Shown: positions 5,518 to 29,547 of the stretch, piece by piece
Numbering within the stretch: the stretch's first letter is position 1
Layout: each line of letters begins with the position of its first letter
From: Marivita sp.
GTDB taxonomy: Bacteria; Pseudomonadota; Alphaproteobacteria; Rhodobacterales; Rhodobacteraceae
Direction of reading: 5' to 3'
Length of the DNA stretch: 34,869 bases
Assembly: GCF_022763305.1 (NCBI RefSeq)
Contig: NZ_JALEGT010000098.1
Span: forward strand, 1 to 34,869
Notes under the pieces: model-generated
The model's database searches: none
Told to the model about the DNA's origin: nothing
The model's input: only the letters and a program-made list of their open reading frames with translations
Translations under genes and position numbers: made by a program

Positions 5518-5554
5518 ACGGATCATCACCCATCTCGCAACTTTGGGAGGACCC

Positions 5555-6496: not shown

Positions 6497-6523
6497 CGCG
6501 GCCCTCGGGAGGAGAAAGCAAGC

Positions 6524-7066: not shown

Positions 7067-7075
7067 GAGAAAACC

Positions 7076-11609: not shown

Positions 11610-12952
<1,343 letters not shown>

Positions 12953-14041: not shown

Positions 14042-15619
14042 TCAGGCCTGACGGATCGGAACCGGCACCCGGTCGATTGCCCCGATCTCGGCCCGCAGAA
14101 GCTGTTCGGTCAGGGCATGACGAATATCGGCGGCATCGGGCTCGTCCCAAAGGTTGTCGAATTCTCCGGGGTCGGTCTCGAGATCATAAAGCTCACCCCA
14201 GTCGACCCCCTCAATGACCGAGATCCGATAGCGGTCCGTGCGCAGCGAATGCACGCGCGGCGGCACGCCGAGGCCGGGATGAAGACGTTGGTGTTCATAC
14301 TGAATCAACGCCGCGTCACGGCCCGGCCCGTCGATGAAGTCCGCTCCCTGAAAGCCTTCGAAGGGGGCCAGCCCGGCACGTGCCAGGATTGCTGCGCCGA
14401 TATCATGGGTCTGGGCGATCCGTTCGGTCCGCTTTCCCGTTTTTGCTTCCTCCAGCTTGGGATCAGACCAAATAAATGGAACGCGGGTCACTTGCTCGTA
14501 GCATTCGGCCCCCTTCAGAAGCAGACGATGATCGCCCAGGTTCTCGCCATGGTCCGAGGTGAACAGGATCACCGTATCCTCGTCGCAGCCGCTGGCTTTC
14601 AGGGTCTGGCAGATCCGGCCTATGGCGTCGTCGATCATGGTGATCATACCGCAGGTCAGTGCCTGCGCTTCTTGCGCCTCGCGGGCGGAACAGCCGATCG
14701 TGTCCATGCCGGCCAAATTGGCCTTGCCGGTGTCCCGCGCATCCAACCGTCCCTGCACATGTGGTGGCGGCACCCAGTCGTTGCGCGTAAAGGCGGCCGG
14801 GATCGCCATGTCGTCGGGATCATACATGTCCCAATAGCGACCCGGCGGATTGAACGGGTGATGCGGGTCGGGGAACGAGACCATCAGGAAGAACGGGTCG
14901 TCGCCGGCATTCTCCTCGATGCAAGCATCCGCGCATTCGGCGATGTAGCTGGTCGAGTAGAGCTCTTCCGGGATCGCCGTGCGAACCGCTTGAGGGCAGG
15001 AATAGTCATGCGGCAACTGGTTGGCCGCCCCGATCCTGGTCAGGGCGTCAGGATCACGTTCCAGCAACCACCGTCGATAGTCACCACCCAGATCGTCGCC
15101 GTGGCTCGTGACCAGATCGACGTGATCGAACCCGTAGAACGGCGTTTGGACGCGCGCATCGGGCTCCTGCCAGTGGGCCGGATCCTCCTGGCCGTGCGCG
15201 GGGTCGTCGAGCGTCCCCCGGATGGCTGCGGATAGTTCCCGCGGCGGGGGCGTGCCCGTGTCGCTGCCGGTCTCCGGAAACACCGGCGGGCGGCCGGTGA
15301 AATTCTGCAGATGGCTCTTGCCGCAGAGCGCCGTGCGGTAGCCTGCGGCCCGAAGCAGCTCGACGAATGTGACCCGGTCCTGGGACAACGGGATGCCATT
15401 GGCGCGGACGCCGCTGACCGACGGCCACCGCCCGGTCATAAGGCTGGCGCGGTTGGGCATACAAACCGGGCTGCTGACATAGAACCGGTCGAAAGCAAGG
15501 CCGCGGCTGGCCAGAGCATCGATGTTCGGGCTACGCACGACCGGATGGCCGTAGCACCCCAAGAAATCTGCACGCAACTGGTCGGTGATGAAAAGTATGA
15601 AATTCGGCTTGCGGCTCAT
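14042..15619 (-). CDS. Second type I sulfatase family protein
   Basis: The 525-residue product is a second formylglycine-type sulfatase, clearly different from the first. It opens with NFILFITDQLRADFLGCYGH (metal aspartate near residue 13), has the modification site C53-M-P-N-R57 in SSPVCMPNRASLMTGR, and later TSDHGENLGDHRLL. The site has N in place of the usual S/A/T but still fits the core pattern C-x-P-x-R. There is no signal peptide, so it is probably cytoplasmic. Its start overlaps the stop of the TRAP permease by 4 bases (ATGA), tying desulfation to import through the TAXI system. It would therefore act on the compound that system brings in. Arylsulfatase, choline-sulfatase or phosphonate monoester hydrolase activity cannot be separated by sequence alone. 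Confidence 0.87.
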   Translation of the reverse strand: MSRKPNFILFITDQLRADFLGCYGHPVVRSPNIDALASRGLAFDRFYVSSPVCMPNRASLMTGRWPSVSGVRANGIPLSQDRVTFVELLRAAGYRTALCGKSHLQNFTGRPPVFPETGSDTGTPPPRELSAAIRGTLDDPAHGQEDPAHWQEPDARVQTPFYGFDHVDLVTSHGDDLGGDYRRWLLERDPDALTRIGAANQLPHDYSCPQAVRTAIPEELYSTSYIAECADACIEENAGDDPFFLMVSFPDPHHPFNPPGRYWDMYDPDDMAIPAAFTRNDWVPPPHVQGRLDARDTGKANLAGMDTIGCSAREAQEAQALTCGMITMIDDAIGRICQTLKASGCDEDTVILFTSDHGENLGDHRLLLKGAECYEQVTRVPFIWSDPKLEEAKTGKRTERIAQTHDIGAAILARAGLAPFEGFQGADFIDGPGRDAALIQYEHQRLHPGLGVPPRVHSLRTDRYRISVIEGVDWGELYDLETDPGEFDNLWDEPDAADIRHALTEQLLRAEIGAIDRVPVPIRQA

Positions 15620-17520
15620 GGCTGTATCCTGCGTTGCGTCTCCGCCTTGCGGACGACGATGAATTCATAGGCGATGACTGCACTTCCGAGCGCCAGCAGC
15701 ATCAGCGCGGGGATCGTGCCTCCGGGCACATAATGACCGGGAACCAGTAGCACCATTCCAAGAAGGGCATACCCGATGCGCCGCGCGCCCTGAAGACGTG
15801 CCGAGAAGTATCCCACGATCACCGCGGTAATGAGCCAGATGCCGAGGCTGGCGCGAAGCAGTGCCTCGAGGATTTCCAGCGGGGTGCCGTTCATGATCAG
15901 GGCCGGGTCAAGCACGAAGACGAAGGGGATGACATAGGCTGACCAGCCCAGACGCATGGCCTTGAATCCCGTGCGCATCGGCCCTGATCCGGCTATGGCT
16001 GCTGCCGCGAAGGCCGCAATTGCAACAGGCGGCGTCATCATTGACATCATGCCCAGATAGAGCACGAAGAGATGGGCGGCGATCTTGTCGATGCCGACAT
16101 CGACAAGCGGTACGGCAATGAGCGTGGACAGGAGCGCATAGACGCCAACGGTCGGCATACCCATGCCCAGCACGATGCAGATCATGGCGGACAGCAGCAG
16201 CAGGAGCGGCAGGTTGCGTCCGCCAATATCGACGATGGCCTCGGAAATATTGAAGAGCACCCCTGACGAATTCAGTGCGCCAATGACGATCCCCGCGACT
16301 GCCGCAATAAAAATGATTGAGACCGATGCATCGGCGGTTCCGGCCATGGCTTCGGAAAAGGTCTTGATCGTAGGCCTCTTGCCGTGGTGTCCGAAGATCA
16401 TCAACGCCACGATCATCGCTGCCGTGGATGCCAGCGCCGCATATTCGGGACGCCAGACCAGTGCAAACAGGCCGTAGATCAGAACCACGAATGGCAGCAC
16501 GAAAACCCAGCCGTGCCGCAACTCGCCGCGGACCGTTTGACCTTCGTTGCGCTCGCCCCTGATCCCGTCGCGCGCCGCGATCAGGTCGATCTGCAGAAAC
16601 AGGCCGACGTAGTAGAGCACTGCAGGAATGACCGAGGCCAGAACGACGGCTGAATATTCGACCTCGGCGACAACCGCCATCAGGAAGGCGGCGGCCCCCA
16701 TGACCGGCGGCACCAACTGCCCGCCTGTCGAGGCGACGGCTTCGAGCCCGGCGGCGGTGTCATTCTTGTAGCCGGCCTTTTTCATCAGCGGAATGGTGAT
16801 CATCCCGGTCGAGACGACATTGGACACCGCCGATCCCGAAATGGCCCCGAAGAATCCCGAGGCCGTGACCGCGATCTTGGCCGACCCGCCGCGTGACGAT
16901 CCCATCATCGCCCCGGCGAGGTTTGAAAAGAAATCTCCACCGCCCGCAGCCTGCAGGACCGAGCCCATCAGCACGAAGGCAATCACCACGGTGCCGACGA
17001 TCGACAGCGGCGCGCCGAGGATGTTGCCGTCCTGGAAGGCCATCGAATAGAGAAAGGCCTCCGGGCGGAAGGGACGACCTGTCAGGACGCCGGGCAGGTA
17101 CTGCGCGAACACCGCGATCAGAATTGCGGCAAGGGCGATGATCGCCAGCGCCAGCCCCGCGGTACGCCGCACGCCCTCGATCAGCAGCACGATCAGGATT
17201 ACCGCAATCATCAATCCGAAGGACGAATAGTCCCGGAAACTGGCATCGTCGAGAAGCTGGGGAAAGCGGACGACGGTATAGAGCGCGGCCAGCGTGCCCA
17301 AGCCGCACAGCGGGATGTCGATGGCCATGGAAAGCCGGGGGCGGGCCCGGTGAAACGGTTCACGGATGAAGATCACCACCGCCGAGAGCGCCACAAGAAA
17401 ATAAAGGAACTGGCCCTTGTAGAGGTTGAAGCCCAGCATCCGCGGCACGTTCAGTGCCCAAAGCACGGCAGCCGCAACCATCACGGTGCCAAGAATACGA
17501 ACCAGTGTCGCGCGTGTCAT
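15616..17520 (-). CDS. TAXI-type TRAP transporter fused permease (DctQM fusion)
   Basis: The 634-residue membrane protein joins the small (DctQ-like, residues about 1-150) and large (DctM-like) TRAP permease parts in one chain, as in TAXI systems. Family motifs include GAISGSAVSNVVSTGMITIP, LVPPVMGAAAFLMA, GMGMPTVGVYALLSTL and MMSMMTPPVAIAAFAAAAIA. The ATG at 17520 is preferred over the one at 17535, because the G-rich ribosome-binding stretch (AAAGGGCGGGG) lies between them. Upstream is the TAXI binding protein (69 bp gap); downstream is the sulfatase (ATGA overlap). Confidence 0.9.
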   Translation of the reverse strand: MTRATLVRILGTVMVAAAVLWALNVPRMLGFNLYKGQFLYFLVALSAVVIFIREPFHRARPRLSMAIDIPLCGLGTLAALYTVVRFPQLLDDASFRDYSSFGLMIAVILIVLLIEGVRRTAGLALAIIALAAILIAVFAQYLPGVLTGRPFRPEAFLYSMAFQDGNILGAPLSIVGTVVIAFVLMGSVLQAAGGGDFFSNLAGAMMGSSRGGSAKIAVTASGFFGAISGSAVSNVVSTGMITIPLMKKAGYKNDTAAGLEAVASTGGQLVPPVMGAAAFLMAVVAEVEYSAVVLASVIPAVLYYVGLFLQIDLIAARDGIRGERNEGQTVRGELRHGWVFVLPFVVLIYGLFALVWRPEYAALASTAAMIVALMIFGHHGKRPTIKTFSEAMAGTADASVSIIFIAAVAGIVIGALNSSGVLFNISEAIVDIGGRNLPLLLLLSAMICIVLGMGMPTVGVYALLSTLIAVPLVDVGIDKIAAHLFVLYLGMMSMMTPPVAIAAFAAAAIAGSGPMRTGFKAMRLGWSAYVIPFVFVLDPALIMNGTPLEILEALLRASLGIWLITAVIVGYFSARLQGARRIGYALLGMVLLVPGHYVPGGTIPALMLLALGSAVIAYEFIVVRKAETQRRIQP

Positions 17521-17589
17521 TCCCCGCCCTTTCATCGAAAGCGCGGCCGTCCCCGGGGACAGACCGCGCGATGGATTGTTTTCGGCTGA

Positions 17590-18534
17590 TCAATTCCAGA
17601 GACCGGCCTCGGCGTAATAGGCCTGGGCCGCGGCGTGGTAGGGAACCGGCAGAGTGCTGTCGGCCATGCCTTCGACCGACATGCCGGCAAAATTCGACTG
17701 GCCCTTGACCAGCGAGGGCAGGTTTTCGGAAATCGCCTGGATGACCCGCACGACCGTTTCATCCGGTGTGGTTGCCGAAGTGATCAGCACCATCGGTGCC
17801 GAGATCACGTTGGTTTCCCCCTCGATGCCGGCCGCATGACCGTCAGGCAACGCTTCGATGGTCGCGCCGCCGTGGCTGGCGGCCAGTGCGGCCAGCGCGT
17901 CATCGTCTGCAGGCAGCGACAGGATGCGAATACCGACGCTTGCATCCGCCCGTTGAACGATCCCGGAACCGACAGAAAAGATGGTGGCGTCGAGCTGGCC
18001 GTCAATCAGGTCGTCGAGCGACTGCGCGCCGCTCTGCACCGGCACCGGCGATACGTCGTCATAGGTCATTCCCGCCATGCCAAGCAGGGTGGTCACGTAA
18101 TGCGCGAGGTTGCGCTGCGACGAAAATTCTGCGGCAATGCGCCGGCCGCGCAGATCGGCGAGGCTCTCGATCCCGGAATCGTCCCGCACGATGATGCCAA
18201 GACGCAGCGGGTAGAGCGCGGCGGCAATCCGTGTATCCGGCTGCGCCCGGCCGTCGAATGCGCCGCGGCCTTCCAATGCGTCGGCTGCGGCAGTAATGTT
18301 GGCGAAGGAGAACTCGAACTCGCCATCATTCATCGCCGGAATCAAAGCGGTCGGCCCGCCGAGGGGAACCACCGTGAAGGTCTCGCCGAGCGCATCGCCG
18401 ACGACATCGGCGATGACCGAACCCGCTGCGTAGGCAAGCGATCCTTGCGGATTGGTTCCGATTGAGATCGGTTGTGCTGTGGCTGCAGCGCCTGCAGCAG
18501 CGAAGGCAAGAGTGATGGCAAGTGTTCTGATCAT
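17590..18534 (-). CDS. TAXI-family TRAP solute-binding protein
   Basis: The 314-residue periplasmic protein belongs to the TAXI group (TRAP-associated extracytoplasmic immunogenic), the partner of fused TRAP permeases. It has a signal peptide ending near residue 20 (AAATAQ before PISIG). The family opening is ISIGTNPQGSLAYAAGSVIA, with VVPLGGPTALIPAMNDGEFE after it and DLRGRRIA (about residue 127) in the middle. It lies 45 bp downstream of the dioxygenase gene, which places substrate capture and ring cleavage in one transcript. Known TAXI ligands include glutamate and other dicarboxylates, but the ligand here is open. Confidence 0.88.
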   Translation of the reverse strand: MIRTLAITLAFAAAGAAATAQPISIGTNPQGSLAYAAGSVIADVVGDALGETFTVVPLGGPTALIPAMNDGEFEFSFANITAAADALEGRGAFDGRAQPDTRIAAALYPLRLGIIVRDDSGIESLADLRGRRIAAEFSSQRNLAHYVTTLLGMAGMTYDDVSPVPVQSGAQSLDDLIDGQLDATIFSVGSGIVQRADASVGIRILSLPADDDALAALAASHGGATIEALPDGHAAGIEGETNVISAPMVLITSATTPDETVVRVIQAISENLPSLVKGQSNFAGMSVEGMADSTLPVPYHAAAQAYYAEAGLWN

Positions 18535-18579: not shown

Positions 18580-19143
18580 TCAGAGCTGAACCCAGCCTTC
18601 CGGCGGCTTGCCTTTGCCCGGATGCACGGTCCCGCAATTGGGGCAAGTGCGGGCCTCGGTGCTGTTGTGGAAAGCCTCGTAGATCTTGGGCAGCGCGGTG
18701 ACGATCCCCTCGGGGCTGTCGAGTGTGACCTCCTCGCGGTGCACCAGGCCCTCGCAGTTGAAGCAATACCACTCGAAGCCTTCCGTCATGCCGGGCTGGC
18801 GCGGCGCCTCGACCACGATGCCGAGCGAGTTTTCCTGTGGGCGCTGCGGGGCGTGGCGGGTGTGCGGCGGCAGCAGGAAAACCTCGCCTTCGCGGATCTT
18901 CACGTCATAAATCTTGCCGCCATCGGCGATCTTGAGCATCATGTCGCCCTTGAGCTGAAAGAACCACTCCTCCACCGGATCATCGTGGAAATCGACTCGC
19001 GTGTTCGGTCCGCCGACGACCATGACGATCATGTCGCCCTCCTTGTGCAGGAGCTGGTTGCCGACCGGCGGCTTGAGCTTGTCGGCATTGTCCGCCACCC
19101 ATTTCTGGAAGTTGAACGGTTTCAGCGTCGGATGGTCTGCCAT
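18580..19143 (-). CDS. nbaC: 3-hydroxyanthranilate 3,4-dioxygenase
   Basis: This cupin-fold Fe(II) enzyme opens the ring of 3-hydroxyanthranilate to 2-amino-3-carboxymuconate semialdehyde (ACMS), which can close spontaneously to quinolinate. The 187-residue product has all key residues of the bacterial enzyme: metal ligands H53, E59 and H97; substrate-binding R49 and R101; and acid E112. It also has the C-terminal rubredoxin-like metal site formed by C127-x2-C130 and C167-x2-C170, typical of bacterial HAAO. The ATG at 19143 follows GAGGAGG; a longer frame exists but is unlike the family. It is the first gene of the block that continues with the TAXI binding protein, permease and sulfatase, and a LysR-type box lies 110 bp upstream. 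The expected next enzyme, ACMS decarboxylase, is not in the window. Confidence 0.95.
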   Translation of the reverse strand: MADHPTLKPFNFQKWVADNADKLKPPVGNQLLHKEGDMIVMVVGGPNTRVDFHDDPVEEWFFQLKGDMMLKIADGGKIYDVKIREGEVFLLPPHTRHAPQRPQENSLGIVVEAPRQPGMTEGFEWYCFNCEGLVHREEVTLDSPEGIVTALPKIYEAFHNSTEARTCPNCGTVHPGKGKPPEGWVQL

Positions 19144-19253
19144 GGTGGCCTCCTCTGGGTTGATACGGCGTTCTGGTCGTTGCGGGTCATGTCTCTCTTT
19201 CATGGCCAAGGGTATGGCAGAGCTTTCAATAAAAAAATGAGCATCAGCGGAAA

Positions 19254-19278
19254 TGGGTATAATTATTGCTGATAGCAG
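19254..19278. promoter_or_regulatory. LysR-type box A, upstream of 3-hydroxyanthranilate dioxygenase
   Basis: The site reads TGGGTAT-N11-ATAGCAG, an imperfect inverted repeat with the classic LysR T-N11-A core (TAT-N11-ATA). Near-identical sites occur at 21260-21284 and 23103-23127. It lies 110 bp upstream of the dioxygenase ATG and just past the EamA stop. It also overlaps a wider perfect repeat, ATCAGC (19243-19248) and GCTGAT (19268-19273). The probable regulator is the LysR protein at 22143. Confidence 0.65.
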
Positions 19279-19281
19279 GGC

Positions 19282-20166
19282 TCAGGCGAACAGGATCGCG
19301 GTACCGGCCGCCGCGGTGGTGGCCGCGAGGGCAAGCCGTTTCCGCGGGATCGGCTCCGAATGGGCGAAAACCATGACCAGCCCCGCGGAAAAGAAGACTT
19401 CCAGCGTGCCGAGCACGGCGACGATGCTGACAGGCGCCGATTTCAGGGCGAAGAACTGCAGGGTCTGCCCGACGCTGAGCGCCAGGGCCGTGGCACAGTG
19501 CCAGCGCCCGTGATCGCGCAAGAGATGCCCAACCCCTGCACGGGGGCCGCGCCGGACCACCGCGGCGCCGAAAAACCACAGGCTTCCGACCAGCGCACCG
19601 ATGAATGTGCCGAACGCCGCGTCGGGCAGTGTATCGAGACCGAGACTGCGCATCGTATAGGCCAGCGCATAGAAGAAGGCCGACCCGATCCCCAGCAGCA
19701 GCCCGGGATCGAAGCCGGGGCCGGTCCTGCGCCGTGGTCTCTGCCAGTAGCACATGACACCCGCCAGGATGATTGCGCCGCCAATGATCGTCCTGGCATC
19801 CGGCACCTCTGCCAGCAGCACAAGGGCGCAGAGCAGCGCGAATACCGGCGTCAGGCGACGCAGCAGGCTGGCTCGGACGGCCCCGATGCGCTCGGTCGCG
19901 CGATACATGGTCACGCGGCCCAGCACCGTCGAGAACAGGCCGGCCAGGGCGAAAATGACAAGCGCCTGCCGGCTCTCCGGAGCCAGCAGAGTTCGCGCGG
20001 GAACCTCGCCCCAACCGAACCAGAGCGCCCATGTCAGCGCGGCGGTGGCGACAACCGACAGGAAGACGCCGTTATCGCCGCGCGCGCTGGCCTTGCTCCT
20101 GACGATGGTGACGCCGGCAACCCCGTAGGCCGCCGCTGCCAGCAGCGCGTAAACCTCACCGGTCAT
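19282..20166 (-). CDS. EamA/DMT-family membrane transporter
   Basis: The 294-residue protein has about ten hydrophobic helices in two related halves, the pattern of EamA (drug/metabolite transporter) proteins. The first half opens with VYALLAAAAYGVAGVTIVRS, and the second with LLLGIGSAFFYALAYTMRSL. The ATG at 20166 is preferred to the GTG just before it, because GGGAGG lies 6-7 bases upstream of it. It follows the DapA-family gene by 25 bp. EamA proteins often export amino acids or metabolites, so it could relieve build-up of a pathway intermediate, but no substrate can be read from the sequence. Confidence 0.82.
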   Translation of the reverse strand: MTGEVYALLAAAAYGVAGVTIVRSKASARGDNGVFLSVVATAALTWALWFGWGEVPARTLLAPESRQALVIFALAGLFSTVLGRVTMYRATERIGAVRASLLRRLTPVFALLCALVLLAEVPDARTIIGGAIILAGVMCYWQRPRRRTGPGFDPGLLLGIGSAFFYALAYTMRSLGLDTLPDAAFGTFIGALVGSLWFFGAAVVRRGPRAGVGHLLRDHGRWHCATALALSVGQTLQFFALKSAPVSIVAVLGTLEVFFSAGLVMVFAHSEPIPRKRLALAATTAAAGTAILFA

Positions 20167-20191
20167 CACGCGCCTCCCTGCATTGCCGGGA

Positions 20192-21145
20192 TCAGAGTTG
20201 CAGGCCGCAATCCTCGAAGGCGGCGCTGGTCGCGGCTTTCTCGGCCTCGGTCAGCTCCAGCATCGGATGGCGCACACGCCCGCCGGTCTGGCCCAGGAGG
20301 TCCTGCCAATATTTGCCGTGAGCCGTGGGTTTGCCGCCCGGTTTGGTCTTGCGGATCGCCTCGCGCACCGGGTTGAGGCTGTCGCGGACCCGCCGTGCCT
20401 GATCGAATTTTCCGGCGAAGGCCAATTCGGTATATTCGTGCATCCGGCGGTCGTTGGCGGTCTGAAGCTGGTAGGGCGGCGAGGAGCAGAGATATAGCTG
20501 CCAACCCAGCTCCTCGATATTGTCCAGCCACTCGTCCTCGGACGAGGTCGAGACAAGGATCTTGTCGCCGACCATCCTGGTCAGCCGCGCGTACATTTCG
20601 CGGGGGACCGAATATTTAATTGCCATGATGTTGGGCAAGTCGGCAATGCGCGCACAGGTTTCCGGCTCCATCAGATAGCCGCTGTCGGGATGGCTCCACA
20701 TCGCGATGCCGATGTCGAGCCGGTCGCAGAGATGCTTGTAGTAGTTGTAAAGCACCTCGTCGCGGTCGGAGCAGAAGCTGAGCATCGGCGCATGGACCAC
20801 GACGTAGTCGGCGCCGCAGTCCTGGGCGTGGCGGCCAAGCTCCAGCACCGTGTCCACGTTCTGATCCGAGATCGACATGATGGTACCGGCCTGGCCCGCG
20901 CATTCCTCGGCGGCAAGGGTCATGTTGCGCTTGCGCTCTTCCAGCGACATCGACCAGAATTCGCCCTGTTTGCCGGCGATGAACAGCCCCTGGATGCCGA
21001 GATCGTCGATCCAGTGGCGGATATTGCGGCGCAGCGCAGCCTCATCGAGTTGCAGATCTGCGTCGAAGGGGTTGAGCGCGGCCGCCCAAATGCCGCGCAT
21101 CGTCTCGCGCGCATGGGCCTTGGCTTCGTGCTTGGCGTAATTCAT
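20192..21145 (-). CDS. DapA/NAL-family (dihydrodipicolinate synthase-like) lyase or hydratase
   Basis: The 317-residue product belongs to the class I aldolase family that includes dihydrodipicolinate synthase, N-acetylneuraminate lyase and hydratase-aldolases of aromatic pathways. The Schiff-base lysine is K177 in IMAIKYSV, and the carboxylate-binding loop is AGKQGEF (residues 57-63, in place of the usual GTTGE). It is longer than DapA proper (about 290) and lacks its exact motifs, so lysine biosynthesis is unlikely. The ATG at 21145 follows GGAAGG. It is divergent from the nadX-like gene with a shared LysR box, and co-transcribed with EamA. A role in cleaving or hydrating a ring-cleavage product is an inference from context. 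Confidence 0.82.
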   Translation of the reverse strand: MNYAKHEAKAHARETMRGIWAAALNPFDADLQLDEAALRRNIRHWIDDLGIQGLFIAGKQGEFWSMSLEERKRNMTLAAEECAGQAGTIMSISDQNVDTVLELGRHAQDCGADYVVVHAPMLSFCSDRDEVLYNYYKHLCDRLDIGIAMWSHPDSGYLMEPETCARIADLPNIMAIKYSVPREMYARLTRMVGDKILVSTSSEDEWLDNIEELGWQLYLCSSPPYQLQTANDRRMHEYTELAFAGKFDQARRVRDSLNPVREAIRKTKPGGKPTAHGKYWQDLLGQTGGRVRHPMLELTEAEKAATSAAFEDCGLQL

Positions 21146-21236
21146 GACAGCTGCCTTCCTGTTCGGGTTCTCGGGCGCCGGACCTGCCGGGACAGCAGGG
21201 GCGGATATGGGGGCATACAGTCAGGAAGTTGCCGCC

Positions 21237-21266
21237 ATGCCAAATTCCGAGCGTAGAATTTGGTAT
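21237..21266. promoter_or_regulatory. Inverted repeat in the dapA/nadX divergent promoter
   Basis: CCAAATTC (21240-21247) and GAATTTGG (21256-21263) are perfect 8-bp complements around an 8-bp spacer. With one G-T exception the pairing extends outward to 21237 and 21266. The right arm overlaps the left half of LysR box B, so the two sites may be parts of one extended regulator-binding region serving both divergent transcripts. Confidence 0.5.
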
Positions 21267-21284
21267 CAAAAAAATGTATATCAG
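21260..21284. promoter_or_regulatory. LysR-type box B, between divergent dapA-like and nadX-like genes
   Basis: The site reads TTGGTAT-N11-ATATCAG, with the T-N11-A core and the same spacing as boxes A and C. It lies 114 bp upstream of the dapA-like ATG and 66 bp upstream of the nadX-like ATG, so one bound regulator could control both. The LysR gene is the second gene of the rightward transcript, which fits autoregulation. Confidence 0.65.
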
Positions 21285-21350
21285 ATGGCGAAGGATTTCC
21301 TTTTGATGGCCCTTTGGAGATGGAAGGATGGCCGGGAAAAGGAGACGGAC

Positions 21351-22133
21351 ATGAAGATTGGCCTGATCGGGCACGGCGCCATAGCCGAATACGTATCGGC
21401 ACAGCTTGCGGCACGGGGCATCACGCCGGCCGTGTTCCTGCTGCGGACACCGCGGGCCTTGCAGGGGCCAGATGCGGATGTGCCGCAGGTGACCGCGGCG
21501 CACCTTCTGCCGGACGGGCTCGACCTGATGGTGGATTGCGCAGGGCATTCCGGGCTGTCGACCCATGGGTCGGCTATCCTGTCGCAGGGGATCGACCTGG
21601 TCAGCGTGTCGCTCGGGGCGCTGGCCGATCGCACGTTGCAGAACACCCTGGAAGAGGCGGCCCGGCGCGGCGGCGCACGGCTTCACCTCGCAAGCGGCGC
21701 GATTGGCGCCCTCGACTGCCTGGCAGCGGCTCGGGTCGGCGGGCTCGATGAGGTCACCTATGTCGGGCGCAAACCGCCGGCAGGCTGGCAAGGCTCGCCG
21801 GCCGAGGAGGTACTGGACCTCGACAGGCTAGTCACCGTGTCGGAGCATTTTGCCGGTAACGCGCGCGAGGCTGCCGTCCAATATCCCAAGAATGCCAATG
21901 TTGCCGCTGCGGTGGCTCTGGCGGGGGCCGGGTTCGAGGCGACGCGGGTGCGTCTGGTCGCCGACCCCGGACTCACCGAAAACATCCATGAAATCCATGC
22001 TGCTGGCGCCTTCGGGCGGTTTTCATTCCGCATCGAAGGACGCACACTGCCTGACAATCCGCGCAGCTCCGCGCTGGCAGCGATGAGTGTGATCGCCGCC
22101 ATCGAACGTCAGCGTGAAGTGATTACCATCTGA
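21351..22133 (+). CDS. nadX: L-aspartate dehydrogenase-like oxidoreductase
   Basis: The family interconverts L-aspartate and iminosuccinate with NAD(P). The 260-residue product has the Rossmann loop IGLIGHGAIAEYV (residues 3-15), the motif ASGAIGALDCLAAA (114-127), YPKNANVAAAVALAG (178-192) and the catalytic histidine H213 in ENIHEIHAAG. The ATG at 21351 has AAAAGGAG upstream. No nadA, nadB or nadC is present, so a role in NAD synthesis is not supported by context. Lying between a DapA-family enzyme, a LysR gene and a semialdehyde dehydrogenase, it more likely works on an amino or imino acid from ring cleavage, for example reducing an imine. That substrate is an inference. LysR starts 9 bp after its stop. 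Confidence 0.83.
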   Translation: MKIGLIGHGAIAEYVSAQLAARGITPAVFLLRTPRALQGPDADVPQVTAAHLLPDGLDLMVDCAGHSGLSTHGSAILSQGIDLVSVSLGALADRTLQNTLEEAARRGGARLHLASGAIGALDCLAAARVGGLDEVTYVGRKPPAGWQGSPAEEVLDLDRLVTVSEHFAGNAREAAVQYPKNANVAAAVALAGAGFEATRVRLVADPGLTENIHEIHAAGAFGRFSFRIEGRTLPDNPRSSALAAMSVIAAIERQREVITI

Positions 22134-22142
22134 GGAGAAATC

Positions 22143-23087
22143 ATGGTCTCGCGCCATTCCCGCATCGTCGACCGTGCCCTGACCCGGCTCAAACTGCGGC
22201 AGTTGCGGCTTTTGGTGGCGGTCGGCCGACACGGCAATATCAGAAGTGCCGCGCAGGATCTGGGCATTTCCCAGCCGGCGGCCACCAAGATGATCCAGGA
22301 TCTGGAACTGGATTTCGAGGTCGAGCTGTTCACCCGCACCAATCGCGGTGTGGTCCCGACCGTGTTCGGAGAGGCGCTGATCCGCCATGGCAAGCTGATC
22401 TTCGCGCAGGTTTCCAACGCGGCACAGGAGCTCGATGACCTGAATGAAGGCAGCAGCGGACGGGTTGTGATCGGCACCTTGCTCGCGGCCTCACCTTCGC
22501 TATTGCCCTCCGCCGTCGAACGGCTGTTGGCCGAGCGGCCCAACGTCGCAATCAGGCTTGTCGAAGGGACCAATGAAATGCTGATGCCGTCGCTGATGTC
22601 TGGCGAAATCGACATGGTCGTCGGCCGATTGCCAGTCTATCGCCACCGCTCGACGATCGTACAGGAGAAGTTCTTCGATGAACGGATTGTCATGGTGGCC
22701 GGGCCCGATCATCCCCTCGTTGGCAAGTCGGCGGTCACGTTCGAGCGGTTGAGCGAGTATGGCTGGGTCCTGCCCCCTGTCGAAACCACGCTGCGGCGGC
22801 AGATCGACCAGTTCTTCATTCGTCAAGGCCAGTTCGTGCCTAAATTGGTCATAGAATCCGTCTCGTTTCTGGCAAATCGCGCCTTGTTGCGGAAAAACCA
22901 GATTCTCGGGCTCATGCCCGCCGATGTCGCGGCACTCGATGTGAAGGCCGGCCTGCTGGCGCAGATCGATTGGACCGTGCCATTCGGCGCCGGCCCGGTC
23001 GGGGTCTCGCACCGCGGCGAAGACAGCCTGTCGCCGGCGGGAATGGCGCTTCTTCACCATCTGCGTTTGACCGCCTCGGAACACTGA
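22143..23087 (+). CDS. LysR-family transcriptional regulator (probable regulator of the island)
   Basis: The 314-residue protein has an N-terminal winged helix-turn-helix (residues about 14-73, with LRQLRLLVAVGRHGNIRSAA and ISQPAATKMIQDLE) and a C-terminal ligand-binding domain that begins near GRVVIGTLLAASPSLLP. It resembles the GbpR-like subgroup, which has about ten extra residues before the HTH. A ribosome binding site (GAGGAG) lies between the nadX stop and the ATG, so the two are co-transcribed. Three LysR-type boxes with identical spacing lie around it, at 19254, 21260 and 23103. This is the best evidence that it controls the dioxygenase-TAXI-sulfatase block, dapA-eamA, its own operon and the downstream aldehyde dehydrogenase. 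The inducer is unknown. Confidence 0.9.
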   Translation: MVSRHSRIVDRALTRLKLRQLRLLVAVGRHGNIRSAAQDLGISQPAATKMIQDLELDFEVELFTRTNRGVVPTVFGEALIRHGKLIFAQVSNAAQELDDLNEGSSGRVVIGTLLAASPSLLPSAVERLLAERPNVAIRLVEGTNEMLMPSLMSGEIDMVVGRLPVYRHRSTIVQEKFFDERIVMVAGPDHPLVGKSAVTFERLSEYGWVLPPVETTLRRQIDQFFIRQGQFVPKLVIESVSFLANRALLRKNQILGLMPADVAALDVKAGLLAQIDWTVPFGAGPVGVSHRGEDSLSPAGMALLHHLRLTASEH

Positions 23088-23102
23088 CGGCCCGCAACGA
23101 GG

Positions 23103-23127
23103 CTGGTATAAGACAAGCCGATATCTG
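23103..23127. promoter_or_regulatory. LysR-type box C, upstream of the aldehyde dehydrogenase
   Basis: The site reads CTGGTAT-N11-ATATCTG, the same layout as boxes A and B with the TAT-N11-ATA core. It lies in the 118-bp gap between the LysR gene and the aldehyde dehydrogenase, 78 bp upstream of the latter's ATG. This implies a separate promoter for the dehydrogenase and possibly sulP. Confidence 0.6.
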
Positions 23128-23205
23128 TATTTCGCCAATTCCCTTGAACGAAAGCCTGCCAGCTTGTGTCATTGGCCTCGACATTCATTGGCAAGCGAGA
23201 CTGAT

Positions 23206-24642
23206 ATGACCTCCTATCCGGACCTGAAACTCTATATCGCGGGCGAATGGCGCGACACGCGCGAACACCTTCCCGTCGTCAACCCAGCCACCGAAGTCGA
23301 AATCGGCCGCCTGCCGCATGCTGAAACCTCCGATCTCGACGATGCCTTGTCCGCCGCCGAGGTAGGCTTCCGGATCTGGCGTGCGACCGCGCCGCGCGAC
23401 CGGGCCGACGTCATGCTGAAAGCCGCCGCCATCCTGCGCGACCGGCAGGAGGAGATCGCCCGGGCGATCACCGCCGAACATGGCAAGCCGCTGACCCAGG
23501 CGCGGCTCGAAGTGATCCGGGGCTGCGAGTTCATCGAATGGGACGCGGGCGAGGCGGTGCGCACCTATGGCCGGGTCATCCCCTCCGCACAAGGCGTGCG
23601 CTACGTCGTGCATCACCAGCCGATCGGCGTGGTACTTGGCCTCTCGCCCTGGAACTTCCCGATGAGCCAGCCCTGCCGCAAGGTCGCCGGCGCGCTTGCT
23701 ACGGGCTGTTCGATCATTCTCAAGGCGGCCGAAGAAACGCCGGCCGGGGCCCTGCATATCGCCCGCGCCTTCCACGACGCGGGCCTGCCGCCGGGGGTGC
23801 TGAACCTCGTTTTCGGCACGCCGGCGATGATTTCCGATCACCTGATCCGGCAGGACCCGGTGCGGCTCGTGGCCTTCACCGGTTCGACCGCCGTGGGGCG
23901 CCATCTGACAACGCTGGCCTCGGAAAACATGACCCGCGTGCTGATGGAACTGGGCGGCCATGCGCCGGTGATCGTCTGCGAGGATACCGACGTGGAACGC
24001 GCCGCGATCAGCAGCGCCGTACGCAAGTACCGCAACGCCGGGCAGGTCTGCACCTCGCCCACCCGCTTCTTCGTGCATGACAGCATCTTCGAGCACTATG
24101 CCGACACGTTCGTCAAGCGTGCCGCCGCAACGGTGGTTGGCAACGGCACGGATGCGGGCGTCGAGATGGGGCCGCTTGCCAATGAGCGCCGCGTGCCGGC
24201 GCTGGCCGCGCTGGTCGAGGATGCTCGCGAAAAGGGCGCCGAAGTGCGGACCGGCGGCGCGCGGATCGGCAACAAGGGTTATTTCTTCGAACCCACCGTG
24301 CTGGTCAACGTTCCCGACGACGCCCGCGTGATGCAGGAGGAGCCCTTCGGCCCACTTGCCGTGATCAATCCGGTCTCGTCGCTGGACGAGGCGATCGCCA
24401 AGGCAAACTCCACGCCCTTCGGGTTGGCCGCCTATGGTTTCACCAACCGCGCCGACTATATCGACCGGATGACAGACGAGATCGAGGCCGGCAACGTCTC
24501 GTTCAACACGCTAGAGGCCTCTTTGCCGGAAACCCCGTTCGGCGGCGTCAAGTCGAGCGGCTACGGCCGCGAGGGTGGCATCGAGGGGCTCGACAACTAC
24601 ATGATCGTGAAAAACATCTCGCACAGCATGCAGATCGTGTGA
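23206..24642 (+). CDS. NAD(P)-dependent aldehyde dehydrogenase, succinate-semialdehyde dehydrogenase-like
   Basis: The 478-residue enzyme oxidises an aldehyde to the acid. The catalytic pair is E248 in LMELGGHAP and C282 in AGQVCTSPTRF. PWNFPMSQPCRKVAGALA (residues 148-165) and AFTGSTAVGR (223-232) form the cofactor site. Sequence style and length fit the GabD/succinate-semialdehyde group rather than the longer 2-aminomuconate semialdehyde dehydrogenases, but the latter role cannot be excluded. The ATG at 23206 was chosen because the family N-terminus (LYIAGEW) starts just after it; an upstream TTG at 23164 is less likely. A LysR box lies 78 bp upstream and a strong hairpin follows the stop. 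In context it would oxidise a semialdehyde from the dioxygenase and DapA-type steps. Confidence 0.88.
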   Translation: MTSYPDLKLYIAGEWRDTREHLPVVNPATEVEIGRLPHAETSDLDDALSAAEVGFRIWRATAPRDRADVMLKAAAILRDRQEEIARAITAEHGKPLTQARLEVIRGCEFIEWDAGEAVRTYGRVIPSAQGVRYVVHHQPIGVVLGLSPWNFPMSQPCRKVAGALATGCSIILKAAEETPAGALHIARAFHDAGLPPGVLNLVFGTPAMISDHLIRQDPVRLVAFTGSTAVGRHLTTLASENMTRVLMELGGHAPVIVCEDTDVERAAISSAVRKYRNAGQVCTSPTRFFVHDSIFEHYADTFVKRAAATVVGNGTDAGVEMGPLANERRVPALAALVEDAREKGAEVRTGGARIGNKGYFFEPTVLVNVPDDARVMQEEPFGPLAVINPVSSLDEAIAKANSTPFGLAAYGFTNRADYIDRMTDEIEAGNVSFNTLEASLPETPFGGVKSSGYGREGGIEGLDNYMIVKNISHSMQIV

Positions 24643-24706: not shown

Positions 24707-26533
24707 ATGGCAAAAGCGGAACCGATATTACCTGTGCAGGGTCTTGCATCGAAGCTGAAGACGGCCGCCGGGCACGCAGTTCCGCCCTGGGCCGGACGGG
24801 TCACGCGCACGACGTTGCGCGGTGATCTGACCGCCGGCCTCACCGGTGCGACGCTGGTGCTGCCGCAAGGGGTTGCGTTCGCGTCAATCGCAGGCCTGCC
24901 GCCGCAATACGGGTTCTATACGGCGATGGTGACGCCGGTGGTCGCCGCGCTCTTCGGATCGAGCTGGCATGCGGTCTCGGGACCGACGACCGCGATCTCG
25001 ATCCTTGTTTTCGGGGCACTGGCCGAACATTTCGTCCCCGGCTCGCCCGACTACATTTCCGCAGCAATCACGCTCGCCCTCTGCGTCGGGCTGTTCCAGC
25101 TGATCCTCGGGATCGCTCGTCTCGGGGTCCTCGTCGATTTCGTATCACATTCGGTCATGACCGGCTTCATCACCGGCGCCGCCTTGCTGATCGCGGTCAG
25201 CCAGATCAGGCACGTGCTCGCCCTGAACATCCCGCGCACCGAGAGCCTGGTCGAACATTTCGGCCTGCTGTGGGAACACCTCCCGCAGACCGACTGGCGC
25301 GCGCTTGCGATCGCCCTGTTGGCCCTGACCACCGGCGCCGCCATCAAGCATGTCCGGCCGCTCTGGCCCAACTACCTGCTGGCGCTCTTCGCCGCGACAC
25401 TGGCCAGCCTGCTCTTCGGCGGGTCCGAGGCCGGGCTGACCACTATCGGCACCATCGAGGGACTGCTGCCTGTCTTCGAGTTGCCGGCGCTCGGTCTGGG
25501 TTTTGTTCAGGAGTTTGGAGGGGCGATTGTCGCCATCGGCCTGGTCGGCCTGCTCGAAGCGATGTCGGTATCGCGCGGCATCGCGCTGCGCTCGGGTCAG
25601 TTGATCGACGGAAACCGCGAGTTCGTGGCGCAAGGCCTCTCCAACATCGCCGCCAGCTTCTTCCGCTGCTATCCCGGCTCGGCTTCCTTTACCCGGTCCG
25701 GGGTCAATTTCGACGCCGGCGCGCAGACGCCGTTGTCGGCGATCTTCGCCGCCCTGTTCCTTGCCGCGATCCTGTTCTTTGTCGCCCCTTTCTTCGCCTA
25801 TGTCCCGATCTCGGGCATGGCCGGGGTGATCCTGCTCGTGGCCTGGAGGCTGATCGACTTTCGCGAGATCCGGCATATCGTCACCACCTCGACCTCCGAG
25901 ATCGTTATCGCGGCGGTTACCTTCCTGTCGGCGCTGTTCCTTTCGCTCGAATTCGCGATCTATGCAGGTGTCCTGCTGTCGCTGGCCCTGTTCCTGAAAG
26001 GCACCGCGCGACCGTTCATCGGTGTCGGAGCGCCCAACCCCGATAGCCCACGCCGGAAATTCATGGCCGCGGCCGAGAACGGGCTGGCGGAATGCCCGCA
26101 GCTCCTGATCGCGCGTATCGACGGGCCGCTCTATTTCGGCTCGGTGGAGTTTCTCCGCCGCCGCTTCCGCCGCTTTGAGATCGAGCGGCCGGAACAGAGG
26201 CACCTCCTGTTCCTCGTCAAGGGCGTCGGCGAGATCGACCTGTCGGGCGCCGATTTCATGATCGAGGAAGCTGCGCGCCGCCAGAAGCGTGGCGGAACGT
26301 TCCACCTGCAGCTCGTGACCCCGAGGACCATCGCCAAACTGGCACGGCTGAAGGTGTTCAAGGCACTTACGAAGGAAAACATCCACCTGTCAAAGGGCGA
26401 CGCCATCGCTGCCGTCGTTCCGACACTCGACCAGTCGATCTGCGCCAGGTGCACCGCCAGGATCTTCCTGGAATGCCCCGGTCCGGAACCCGAACCGTCC
26501 TCGGATTCGGGCAGGTCGGCGTCCGGTACCTAG
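24707..26533 (+). CDS. SulP-family anion transporter with STAS domain
   Basis: The 608-residue protein has the SulP membrane domain (residues about 35-430) and a C-terminal cytoplasmic STAS domain (about 455-570, with LIARIDGPLYFGSVEFLRRR and GEIDLSGADFMIEEAAR). SulP signatures seen are LTAGLTGATLVLPQGVAFAS, GLPPQYGFYTAMVTPVVAAL and SGPTTAISILVFG. Family members move sulfate, bicarbonate or other anions. With two sulfatases in the same island, release or balance of sulfate is a reasonable role, but that is inference. The last residues are Cys- and Pro-rich. Its stop overlaps that of the convergent LysR gene over a CTAG. Confidence 0.9.
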   Translation: MAKAEPILPVQGLASKLKTAAGHAVPPWAGRVTRTTLRGDLTAGLTGATLVLPQGVAFASIAGLPPQYGFYTAMVTPVVAALFGSSWHAVSGPTTAISILVFGALAEHFVPGSPDYISAAITLALCVGLFQLILGIARLGVLVDFVSHSVMTGFITGAALLIAVSQIRHVLALNIPRTESLVEHFGLLWEHLPQTDWRALAIALLALTTGAAIKHVRPLWPNYLLALFAATLASLLFGGSEAGLTTIGTIEGLLPVFELPALGLGFVQEFGGAIVAIGLVGLLEAMSVSRGIALRSGQLIDGNREFVAQGLSNIAASFFRCYPGSASFTRSGVNFDAGAQTPLSAIFAALFLAAILFFVAPFFAYVPISGMAGVILLVAWRLIDFREIRHIVTTSTSEIVIAAVTFLSALFLSLEFAIYAGVLLSLALFLKGTARPFIGVGAPNPDSPRRKFMAAAENGLAECPQLLIARIDGPLYFGSVEFLRRRFRRFEIERPEQRHLLFLVKGVGEIDLSGADFMIEEAARRQKRGGTFHLQLVTPRTIAKLARLKVFKALTKENIHLSKGDAIAAVVPTLDQSICARCTARIFLECPGPEPEPSSDSGRSASGT

Positions 26534-27417
26534 GCCCGCAGAAAAATCCGCCGTTCGTCACGTACCAGCTGATCCAGGATTTCCACGGCAGCGCTGATCC
26601 GACGGGCGACTCTCATATTTTCATGCCAGACGGTCCAATAGGTCCGCGTCGCGAAGGTTTCGGGGAAAAGGCGCTCGATCTCCGCGGCCCCGGCAGCCAT
26701 GAAATCGTGCAGGATACCGATTCCCACGCCGGCGCGGACGGCTTCGAACTGGCCGATCGCGGTGGAGACCTCGACGTCGGACCGCCAGTCGCGCATGAAA
26801 TCGGCGGAATAGTTCAGATCGGGCGAATAGATCAGATCCTCGACATAGCCGAGCAGCGTGTGCCGCCGCAGCTGCGCCAGATCGCGGGGCCGACCGGCCC
26901 GCTCCAGGTAGTCTTTCGATGCGTAGAGTCCGAGGGTGTATTCTGTCAGCTTCCGGACCCGCAATCGCCCCCTGTCCGGACGGCCGACCATGACCGCGAT
27001 ATCGGCCTCGCGCTCCGAAAGCGAGAAACTGCGCGGGACCGGCACGAGCTGGACCTGTAATTCCGGGTGTTGCTGGCGGAACCGGGTCAGCCGCGGCGCG
27101 AGGAAGGCGCTTCCGAATCCATCCGGCGCGCCGATGCGTATCGTTCCGGCGATACGTTCGCGGCGACTTGTCACCCGTGCCACTCCCGACACGACTTCGC
27201 CTTCGACCCTGTCGGCGGTTTCCAGCAGCATCTGGCCGTCCTCGGTAAGCTGGCAGCCCCGCGTCGTCCGGTCCAGGAGCCGCGCGCCCACCGCGCCTTC
27301 GAGCGCGGCTATATGCCGACTCAGAAGCGCCTGGCTGACGCCGCGCCTGCGCGCCGCGCCCAGCATCTGCCCTTCGCGTGCGACGGCAAGAAAATAGCGG
27401 AGGTCATCCCAGTTCAT
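26530..27417 (-). CDS. LysR-family transcriptional regulator divergent from mmsA
   Basis: The 295-residue protein starts with a typical LysR helix-turn-helix (MNWDDLRYFLAVAREGQMLG, then QALLSRHIAALEGAVGARLL), with the substrate-binding domain from about residue 88 (RIAGTIRIGAPDGFGSAFLA). It differs clearly from the LysR at 22143. It is transcribed away from mmsA with 92 bp between the starts, the usual layout for a LysR and its target. The Shine-Dalgarno before the ATG is weak. Its 3' end overlaps sulP by 4 bases on the opposite strand. Confidence 0.92.
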   Translation of the reverse strand: MNWDDLRYFLAVAREGQMLGAARRRGVSQALLSRHIAALEGAVGARLLDRTTRGCQLTEDGQMLLETADRVEGEVVSGVARVTSRRERIAGTIRIGAPDGFGSAFLAPRLTRFRQQHPELQVQLVPVPRSFSLSEREADIAVMVGRPDRGRLRVRKLTEYTLGLYASKDYLERAGRPRDLAQLRRHTLLGYVEDLIYSPDLNYSADFMRDWRSDVEVSTAIGQFEAVRAGVGIGILHDFMAAGAAEIERLFPETFATRTYWTVWHENMRVARRISAAVEILDQLVRDERRIFLRA

Positions 27418-27509
27418 TTCATACGTTTTAGCATAACGGATTATCGGTTGCAGGTATTTATATACGGAAACAAATAGACGATTTAGGCCGCGTAACAGGA
27501 GGAAATCCC
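27418..27509. promoter_or_regulatory. Divergent promoter region between lysR and mmsA
   Basis: This 92-bp A/T-rich gap must carry both promoters. It contains a small dyad GTAT-TTAT-ATAC (27454-27465), but none of the TAT-N11-ATA boxes of the neighbouring island, so the two LysR regulons appear separate. The mmsA ribosome binding site GGAGG lies at its right end. Confidence 0.5.
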
Positions 27510-29009
27510 ATGACCGAGATCACCCATTTCATCGACAACACCCGCGTCAAAGGCATGTCCGGACGCAGCCAGCCGGTCTTTAATCCGGCCACCGGAGAGG
27601 CGGAGAAGACCGTCGCGCTCGCTTCCGCTCAAGAAGTGGGACGCGCCGTGGCTGCGGCACATGCGGCCTTGCCCGCCTGGTCGAAGACTCCCGCCCTGCG
27701 CCGAGCGCGCATCCTCGACCGGTTCAAGATGATCCTGTGGGACCGCGCCGACCAGCTCGCCGAGGCGATCTCGGCCGAGCATGGCAAGACCCATGACGAT
27801 GCGAAGGGCGAAGTAACCCGCGGCCTCGAGGTCGTGGAGTTTGCCGCCGGCGCGCCGCATCTGCTGAAGGGCGAGATCACCGAGAATGTCGGTACCGCCG
27901 TCGACAGCCATTCGCTGCGCCAGCCGCTGGGTGTGGTTGCCGGCATCACGCCGTTCAATTTCCCGGCCATGGTGCCGATGTGGATGTTTCCCGTGGCGCT
28001 CGCCTGTGGCAACACCTTCATCCTGAAGCCCTCCGAGCGCGATCCCTCCGCCTCGCTCCTGATCGCCGAATGGCTCGCAGAGGCCGGTTTGCCGAAAGGT
28101 GTCTTCAACGTCGTGCAGGGCGACAAGGAAGCCGTCGATGCGCTGCTCACCCATCCGGACGTCAAGGCGATCAGCTTCGTCGGTTCGACACCGATCGCGA
28201 AATACATCTACGAGACCGGCACCGCGAATGGCAAGCGCGTGCAGGCGCTCGGCGGGGCCAAGAACCACATGGTCATCCTGCCGGACGCCGATCTCGACAT
28301 GGCCGCGAACGCGCTGATGGGCGCGGCCTACGGGTCCGCCGGCGAACGCTGCATGGCGATCTCGGTCGCTGTCCCGGTGACCGACAAGGTCGCCGACGCG
28401 CTGATCGAAAGGCTGGTACCCAAAATCGAGGCGCTGAAGGTCGGACCGGCAGCGGACCGGTCGTCGGAAATGGGTCCCGTGGTCACCGCAGCGGCGCGCG
28501 ACAAGATCAAGAGCCTGATCGACCGGGGCGAGGCCGAGGGCGCAAAACTCGTCGTCGATGGTCGAGGCTTCACACCGCCGCAGGGCTACGAGAACGGTTA
28601 TTTCGTCGGGCCGACCCTGATCGACAACGTGACCCCGGACATGACGATCTGGAAAGAGGAGGTCTTCGGCCCGGTGCTGTCTGTGGTCCGCCGCAAGGAT
28701 TATGCCGCCGCGGTCGACCTGATCCACGCTCACGACTATGCCAACGGTGTAGCGGTCTTCACCCGCGACGGGGATGCAGCGCGCAGCTTTGCCCATGACA
28801 TCGAGGTCGGCATGGTCGGCGTCAATATCCCGATCCCGGTGCCGATGGCGTTCCACTCCTTCGGAGGCTGGAAGCAGTCGCTCTTCGGCGACCATCACAT
28901 GCATGGCCCTGAAGGCGTCCGTTTCTATACCCGGCTGAAGACAATCACCACGCGCTGGCCATCGGGTGTCCGAACCGATCCGGAGTTCGTGATGCCAACG
29001 ATGGGTTGA
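27510..29009 (+). CDS. mmsA: CoA-acylating methylmalonate-semialdehyde dehydrogenase
   Basis: The enzyme converts methylmalonate semialdehyde to propionyl-CoA, and malonate semialdehyde to acetyl-CoA, with NAD and CoA. The 499-residue product shows the family pattern: the catalytic cysteine C281 in [27 protein letters not shown] (residues 145-161), and [17 protein letters not shown], where the general-base glutamate of other aldehyde dehydrogenases is missing, as is normal in CoA-acylating members. The C-terminal [15 protein letters not shown] is also typical. The ATG has AGGAGG upstream. It is a single-gene unit ending at a good terminator. It usually serves valine, inositol or beta-alanine breakdown; here it might also take a C3 semialdehyde from the island. 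Confidence 0.95.
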
Positions 29010-29490: not shown

Positions 29491-29547
29491 TCAGGACACG
29501 CAGCGCCAGCTGGTTGCCACCTGCCAAGATCGCGTAGAGATCAGGTG

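Follow-up and report, generated by a model that had tools for sequence, protein, structure and literature searches.

The NbaCDEF, or 3-hydroxyanthranilate, route of Pseudomonas and Burkholderia starts from a product of tryptophan breakdown and includes a 3-hydroxyanthranilate 3,4-dioxygenase (NbaC) together with an aldehyde dehydrogenase. Elsewhere, enzymes of the dihydrodipicolinate synthase (DHDPS) family are paired with semialdehyde dehydrogenases, for example, 2-keto-3-deoxy-sugar-acid dehydratase with alpha-ketoglutaric semialdehyde dehydrogenase (KGSADH). Here, we analyzed a window of 34,869 nucleotides, which is one whole contig (NZ_JALEGT010000098.1; G000:C14) of the 4.43-Mb genome of Marivita sp. 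and encodes a LysR-type regulator at positions 22143 to 23087. Based on sequence comparisons, we estimate at roughly 87% the probability that boxes around this gene are its operators, with the core GNTAT-N11-ATANC, and that they control a local, probably catabolic regulon of five promoters. These would serve kynureninase (kynU), the DctP, DctQ, and DctM transporter (dctPQM), 3-hydroxyanthranilate 3,4-dioxygenase (3HAO), the divergent pair formed by a DapA-like enzyme (dapA) and a NadX-like enzyme with the regulator (nadX-lysR), and an aldehyde dehydrogenase (aldh).

Both dioxygenase and aldehyde dehydrogenase are shared with the NbaCDEF route, whereas here they are accompanied by DapA-like and NadX-like genes, and no 2-amino-3-carboxymuconate semialdehyde (ACMS) decarboxylase of at least 110 amino acids is conserved in the loci. 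As in the DHDPS-family/KGSADH pairs, a DapA-family enzyme is conserved near a KGSADH-like aldehyde dehydrogenase, but it carries the replacements MWSHP and GKQGE and is coupled to a ring-cleaving dioxygenase. The best NCBIfam model for the regulator is PcaQ, the protocatechuate regulator of Sinorhizobium meliloti; however, the score falls below the PcaQ cut-off, the PcaQ site as quoted in the excerpted source (ATAaccgggggatTAT) is a different sequence, and the targets here are not pca genes. The protein passes no cut-off among the 25 listed of 54 NCBIfam models. In the excerpted text of PMC5002191, LysR sites are given as T-N11-A with the extension CTATA-N9-TATAG. The sites in the window are like those of that excerpt in their T-N11-A core and in an apparent arrangement of a strong distal site and a weaker site beside the -35 element, and they differ in that the outer G and C stand one free base away from TAT and ATA, whereas the published C and G lie directly outside (PMC5002191). 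The mechanism of the regulator is an ordinary one, and the pathway that it controls may be out of the ordinary. The regulator and its predicted sites are as follows.

22143-23087, plus strand: LysR-type regulator, PcaQ-like but below the PcaQ cut-off (NCBIfam PcaQ, 213.3 bits; cut-off, 303.8)
19255-19277, minus strand: predicted LysR site of the 3HAO-TAXI-sulfatase unit (matrix score, 23.1)
21261-21283, no strand assigned: predicted LysR site in the divergent dapA / nadX-lysR promoter region (matrix score, 28.8)
23104-23126, plus strand: predicted LysR site of the aldehyde dehydrogenase unit (matrix score, 23.2)
2458-2480, plus strand: further predicted LysR site, upstream of the likely kynU start codon (TTG 2711) by about 230 bp (matrix score, 20.1)
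12720-12742, minus strand: further predicted LysR site before dctPQM, with other genes between dctPQM and 3HAO (matrix score, 17.6)

An earlier note on this DNA had picked out three boxes by eye, TGGGTAT-N11-ATAGCAG (19254 to 19278), TTGGTAT-N11-ATATCAG (21260 to 21284), and CTGGTAT-N11-ATATCTG (23103 to 23127), and had described them as 7-bp inverted halves around an exact 11-bp spacer, in the known LysR T-N11-A pattern, 66 to 114 bp from start codons. A direct check of the letters of the window confirmed the coordinates and the spacer for all three 25-mers. The halves are indeed inverted, although their pairing is imperfect (4, 5, and 5 of 7 pairs). The T-N11-A assignment was borne out, as the core GNTAT-N11-ATANC is an extended site of this kind, and the distances agree with the likely start codons by homology for 3HAO (ATG 19143), dapA (21145), nadX (ATG 21351), and aldh (ATG 23206); those of dctP and kynU are 12596 and TTG 2711. 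A search of the window for TGGTAT-N11-ATATCAG with up to three mismatches returned 11 matches versus 2.39 expected, a number reached by none of 100 shuffles, and two further sites of the same kind were found at 2458 to 2480, before kynureninase, and at 12720 to 12742, before DctP. When spacer lengths were scanned over 1.54 Mb, N11 gave 113 sites with up to two mismatches, compared to 12 to 39 for 17 other spacers, and only 11 bp stood out.

To judge conservation, we used loci fetched by LysR similarity (the best 80 of 161), from which tblastn matches below half length or below the identity floor for each gene were dropped before counting. The 80 loci contained dapA in 78, nadX in 73, 3HAO in 70, aldh in 68, dctP in 42, the EamA-family transporter gene eamA in 20, a molybdopterin oxidoreductase (Mo-oxidoreductase) in 10, and kynU in 7. 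Using a matrix built from the three window sites alone, with a score of at least 10, we recovered a site before 68/68 aldh, 71/73 nadX, and 55/70 3HAO genes (L080 and L113, whose records end at nadX or close to it, were counted as having no site); inside the same genes, the matrix gave 0/68, 1/73, and 1/70, respectively, and 0, 5, and 4 at a looser score of 8. Matrices trained on a single promoter class recovered the other classes. The check that the earlier note had proposed, a scan of relatives with a matrix of the three sites, thus recovers the orthologous promoters, and the motif is conserved upstream of orthologous operons in the loci examined. What is kept across loci is G-N-TAT / ATA-N-C, which refines the site to GNTAT-N11-ATANC; with a matrix seeded with the motif, each base of TAT and ATA was retained in 194 to 197 of 197 sites, the outer G in 191/197, and the outer C in 196/197.

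It is scarcely credible that the three boxes, lying in intergenic DNA rich in A and T, resemble operators by chance. The exact core GNTAT-N11-ATANC occurs at 20 distinct places in the genome, and the reversed-pattern control occurs at 13 genome-wide; outside the island there are 14 places, about as many as the control, as chance would predict. Six of the 20 places are on this 34.9-kb contig, however, and this clustering, the conservation at orthologous positions, and the spacer specificity all contradict chance. Because the motif occurs at about chance frequency outside the island, the regulon looks local, and we read that frequency in this way and not as a refutation of the motif. A match at 34219 to 34241 was rejected as a sixth operator; it lies inside ccoP and scores 9.9, compared to 17.6 to 28.8 for the other five. 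Among the 14 outside places, a single one reaches the scores of the island sites, at positions 1500 to 1522 of locus L121 on contig C84 (G000:C84:40665; score, 18.8), near the start of a frame for a LytTR-domain protein. We rejected it as a member of the regulon and consider it a probable chance resemblance, because the control, at 13, yields about as many places as the 14 found outside the island, of which this is one.

Gene order across the loci indicates that a predicted site goes with the transcription unit and not with the gene, supporting, at the level of sequence, the earlier proposal that the boxes serve separate transcripts. Where 3HAO lies behind dapA, it has a site in 33/33 loci with a gap of at least 82 bp and in 0/6 with a gap of 67 bp or less; it has one in 19/19 loci behind eamA, 0/1 behind aldh, and 6/11 where no upstream gene was mapped. 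The dctP gene has no site in any of 41 loci where it follows 3HAO and has one in the single locus where it follows aldh (L084). In the window, genes for TAXI, sulfatase, and PF04227 proteins stand between 3HAO and dctP, and dctP, apart from 3HAO, has its own site. Likewise, kynU has a site in 2/2 loci without a mapped upstream gene, and in the window, but in 0/4 behind aldh and 0/1 behind 3HAO, whereas aldh has one in 68/68 by this unit count. The nadX-lysR unit has a site whenever it diverges from dapA (62/62) or from the Mo-oxidoreductase gene (9/9) and in 0/2 loci without a mapped upstream gene. For lysR itself, the figures are 1/73 behind nadX and 6/7 without an adjacent nadX.

We also evaluated whether the sites occur together with this LysR, as the earlier note had suggested. 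Matches to the protein were found in 10/147 genomes, its own included, where it was the single match at an E value of 1e-60 (15 of 39 candidates scored), and LysR and sites occur together in many loci titled Alphaproteobacteria and in some titled Gammaproteobacteria. In a class-wide set of 385 genomes, 36 besides its own encode dapA or 3HAO, and 32 were judged: G466, G169, G298, and G193 (3HAO match but no fetched locus) were left unjudged, G188 and G216 were judged on dapA only, and G434, with a LysR match but neither gene, is outside the judged set. A site at dapA or 3HAO was present in 5/7 genomes with a LysR of at least 50% identity, in 1/5 at 39 to 46%, and in 0/20 without LysR, defined as no match at an E value of 1e-55 among 5 candidates scored per genome (Fisher P value of 2.6e-4 for 5/7 versus 0/20). 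The association also extends in trans. In G047, G054, and G089, where 3HAO-dctPQM is on a contig other than that of lysR, a site was found in 3/3 cases (scores, 19.1, 18.7, and 24.9), none of which was used in building the matrix; an unlinked 3HAO in G096 has no site (0/1), and G042 and G090, which lack a match to this LysR, have no site near 3HAO (0/2). G090, G071, and G096 belong to both the relatives set and the class-wide set, so the in-trans and class-wide results are not wholly independent.

Several observations weigh against this assignment. G419 encodes a LysR of 63% identity yet has no recognizable site before dapA or 3HAO, and G096 (52%) likewise has none there, though it has sites near lysR and a TAXI gene. 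These two genomes, and a second LysR gene in the window (26530 to 27417), would suit real operators bound by another regulator, be it that second LysR or one encoded at an unlinked place, in which case the linked LysR would be a passenger. We consider this distinctly unlikely, as the presence of sites tracks the linked LysR across genomes, even with the target on another contig, and the two are found together in loci titled Alpha- and Gammaproteobacteria, whereas, in the neighborhoods of nine relatives, the second LysR matched at no more than 26% and 31% identity, in both cases a protein of G006, which belongs to the same genus as the window. Also on the negative side, absence of LysR was called from few scored candidates, the fetched loci are related to one another, and the conservation figures of the refined matrix are partly built in because it was seeded with the motif. 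A control half-site, TTGGAT, gave 59 sites at N11 with up to two mismatches, still below 113 (the other five controls gave 21 to 36). The kynU site is far from its start codon, at about 230 bp, and the dctP site of L084 is weak (12.6), with a right half that departs from the core. Finally, 12/70 3HAO genes have no site: six follow dapA at close range, one (L099) follows aldh, and five (L067, L073, L089, L102, and L114) have no mapped upstream gene. The nadX-side promoter has neither the T at +15 nor the -35 geometry described below.

Promoters with a site (68 aldh, 67 dapA, and 58 3HAO) were profiled by counting positions from the site center toward the gene. T at +15 had a frequency of 1.0 in all three classes and was also present in 5/5 kynU and dctP promoters outside the matrix training (two from the window, one before each gene, and three more). 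TTG at +29 to +31 had frequencies of 0.99 to 1.0 for aldh and 0.78 to 0.99 for dapA, and exact TTG at +29 was seen in 6/12 individually inspected promoters; in the promoters of aldh and 3HAO, a -10 element is matched by A at +53/54 and T at +57 (0.76 to 0.90). In the window, the corresponding putative elements are as follows.

23144-23149, plus strand: aldh promoter, putative -35, TTGAAC, 29 bp past the site center (TTG here in 99 to 100% of the aldh promoters profiled)
21238-21243, minus strand: dapA promoter, putative -35, TTGGCA, 29 bp past the site center (promoter profile)
19209-19214, minus strand: putative -10, TACCCT, of the 3HAO promoter (promoter profile)

In sequence, this layout fits the LysR activation scheme, in which a dimer of dimers uses two sites, one distal and strong and the other proximal and weak (PMC5002191). 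Under such a scheme, a LysR tetramer would hold the strong recognition site, centered near -64 of the presumed transcription start, close to the roughly 65 bp expected of a LysR recognition site. Once an inducer from the pathway is bound, for which 3-hydroxyanthranilate or its ring-opened product is a candidate, the second dimer would occupy weaker half-sites, which, counted from the site center, span about +12 to +27 and include the conserved T at +15. Placed beside the -35 at +29, it would recruit RNA polymerase, so that the regulator would activate rather than repress. The site in the divergent dapA / nadX-lysR region may then serve both activation of dapA and self-regulation.

The earlier note had proposed a regulon of 3HAO, TAXI transporter, sulfatase, DapA-like, EamA, NadX-like, and dehydrogenase genes. 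The matrix scan and the co-occurrence support this membership, but the list was incomplete: kynU, together with the operon that it likely heads, and dctPQM should be added. The genes concerned are listed below, assigned by family models, with other evidence in parentheses; co-transcription, where given, is judged from spacing.

2711-3907, plus strand: kynureninase (kynU)
3865-5517, plus strand: sulfatase 1, whose frame overlaps the kynU end (CGPSR motif)
5477-8557, plus strand: TctCBA transporter genes, probably in the kynU unit
8640-9608, plus strand: pyridoxal phosphate-dependent threonine/serine dehydratase-like protein, probably in the kynU unit
9751-11112, minus strand: DctM
11007-11549, minus strand: DctQ
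11610-12596, minus strand: DctP solute-binding protein
14042-15619, minus strand: sulfatase 2 (CMPNR motif)
15616-17535, minus strand: TRAP fused permease
17590-18534, minus strand: TAXI solute-binding protein
18580-19143, minus strand: 3HAO, likely ATG 19143 (253.4 bits; cut-off, 220)
19282-20169, minus strand: EamA-family transporter, probably in the dapA unit
20192-21145, minus strand: DapA-like (DHDPS family) enzyme with GKQGE / MWSHP / IKYS signature (alignment, structure model)
21351-22133, plus strand: NadX-like (aspartate dehydrogenase family) enzyme (Asp_DH_C domain)
23206-24642, plus strand: aldehyde dehydrogenase, SSADH / KGSADH-like, likely ATG 23206
24707-26533, plus strand: SulP sulfate permease, possibly in the aldh unit

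Residue alignments comprised 79, 74, 69, 71, and 81 sequences, in each case the loci plus the window. The R, H, E, H, R, and E columns of 3HAO, which we take to be metal or substrate residues, are conserved in 71/71; the histidine of NIHEI in the NadX-like enzyme, in which an Asp_DH_C domain is present, in 74/74; and the Cys and Glu of the aldehyde dehydrogenase in 69/69, the last three presumably catalytic. The top solved match of the aldehyde dehydrogenase is a KGSADH. The DapA-like enzyme has a predicted DHDPS/NAL fold (pLDDT, 92.6) and keeps the Schiff-base Lys (IKYS), but in 79/79 sequences MWSHP replaces the Tyr and GKQGE replaces the Thr pair of DHDPS, presumably Tyr133 and Thr44/45; with catalytic Tyr and Thr pair replaced, it does not look like a true DHDPS. 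No further gene family (at least 110 amino acids, 40% identity) occurs in more than 6 of the 80 loci, and therefore no ACMS decarboxylase or deaminase of at least 110 amino acids is conserved there. We take ACMS decarboxylase to belong to the Amidohydro_2 family and to be represented in the PDB. The three Amidohydro_2 proteins above the cut-off in the genome match other hydrolases and no ACMS decarboxylase structure in the PDB (a fourth, subthreshold match was outside this comparison), so the usual enzyme seems to be absent from the genome. A tryptophan dioxygenase gene is present elsewhere in the genome, with no exact-pattern site on its contig.

Ten of the 80 loci (L050, L056, L062, L064, L077, L088, L100, L104, L105, and L111) have a gene for a molybdopterin oxidoreductase large subunit where aldh is missing; its family was assigned on members from relatives. 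With identity floors of 42% and 60%, respectively, this gene (10 loci) and aldh (68 loci) never occur in one fetched locus, and two loci have neither; we infer from this exclusion that the two enzymes probably oxidize the same aldehyde. A role as pyridine hydroxylase was rejected. An aldehyde oxidizer is the better guess, given that, of the NCBIfam models, glyceraldehyde dehydrogenase alpha fits best (two members score 546.8 and 669.1 bits, below the cut-off of 790) and that the gene is never found with aldh. Locus L157 (G042) has a Mo-oxidoreductase-dapA-3HAO cluster with no site nearby, and this LysR has no match there; the cluster adjoins a different LysR-like gene (29%) and probably represents the same pathway under another regulator.

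Tentatively, and with the odds somewhat against it, we propose that the regulon encodes an undescribed bacterial 3-hydroxyanthranilate route without ACMS decarboxylase. 3HAO would cleave the ring, and the NadX-like enzyme would act on the imine form of the product. One end of this form resembles iminosuccinate, as in the reaction of aspartate dehydrogenase, and the form would otherwise close to quinolinate. The unusual DapA-like Schiff-base enzyme would then cleave or deaminate it, and the aldehyde dehydrogenase or Mo-oxidoreductase would oxidize the aldehyde. A literature search, judged by title and mostly without subscription journals, found no paper on this gene set. 3HAO and kynureninase are also enzymes of NAD synthesis, and a NadX-like gene is present, as would be expected if a real regulon served to make NAD, by way of 3HAO and quinolinate, rather than catabolism. 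That purpose is unlikely, however: besides a DapA-like enzyme and either an aldehyde dehydrogenase or a Mo-oxidoreductase, the units carry uptake systems (DctPQM, TAXI, and TctCBA), and the patchy occurrence of the LysR in 10/147 genomes, its own included, suits an optional catabolic island.

Two CxPxR sulfatases and a SulP permease are in or beside the regulon (3865 to 5517, 14042 to 15619, and 24707 to 26533). A sulfatase-1-like gene is present in 5/80 loci, and sulfatase 2 occurs with TAXI in L061 (Paracoccus halophilus). Speculatively, a sulfated compound of the kynurenine type might be the natural substrate. Farther along the plus strand, positions 27510 to 29009 encode a second aldehyde dehydrogenase (Aldedh, 484.5 bits), and a long antisense frame at 27483 to 28904 has no Pfam or NCBIfam match. 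At 29083 to 29913 (plus strand), one frame combines an N-terminal part like aspartate ammonia-lyase (residues 4 to 100) with a C-terminal part like UTRA/HutC and may be a deletion fusion. Near the contig end, positions 727 to 2007 (minus strand) encode an McrBC-family protein (Pfam McrBC, 244.7 bits), for which no PADLOC model matched.

Judged from sequence, the window thus appears to hold a conserved local LysR regulon with five predicted operators, for which the earlier note was right but too modest. A motif read by hand has become a well-supported regulon, and the LysR to which it is assigned occurs in many Alphaproteobacteria and in some loci titled Gammaproteobacteria. The rule of one site per unit, under which dctPQM has a site of its own when it is set apart from 3HAO, offers a clear example of operons and operators that change in step. 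The regulation also marks out the enzymes of a 3-hydroxyanthranilate route seemingly without the usual decarboxylase and makes this route directly testable.

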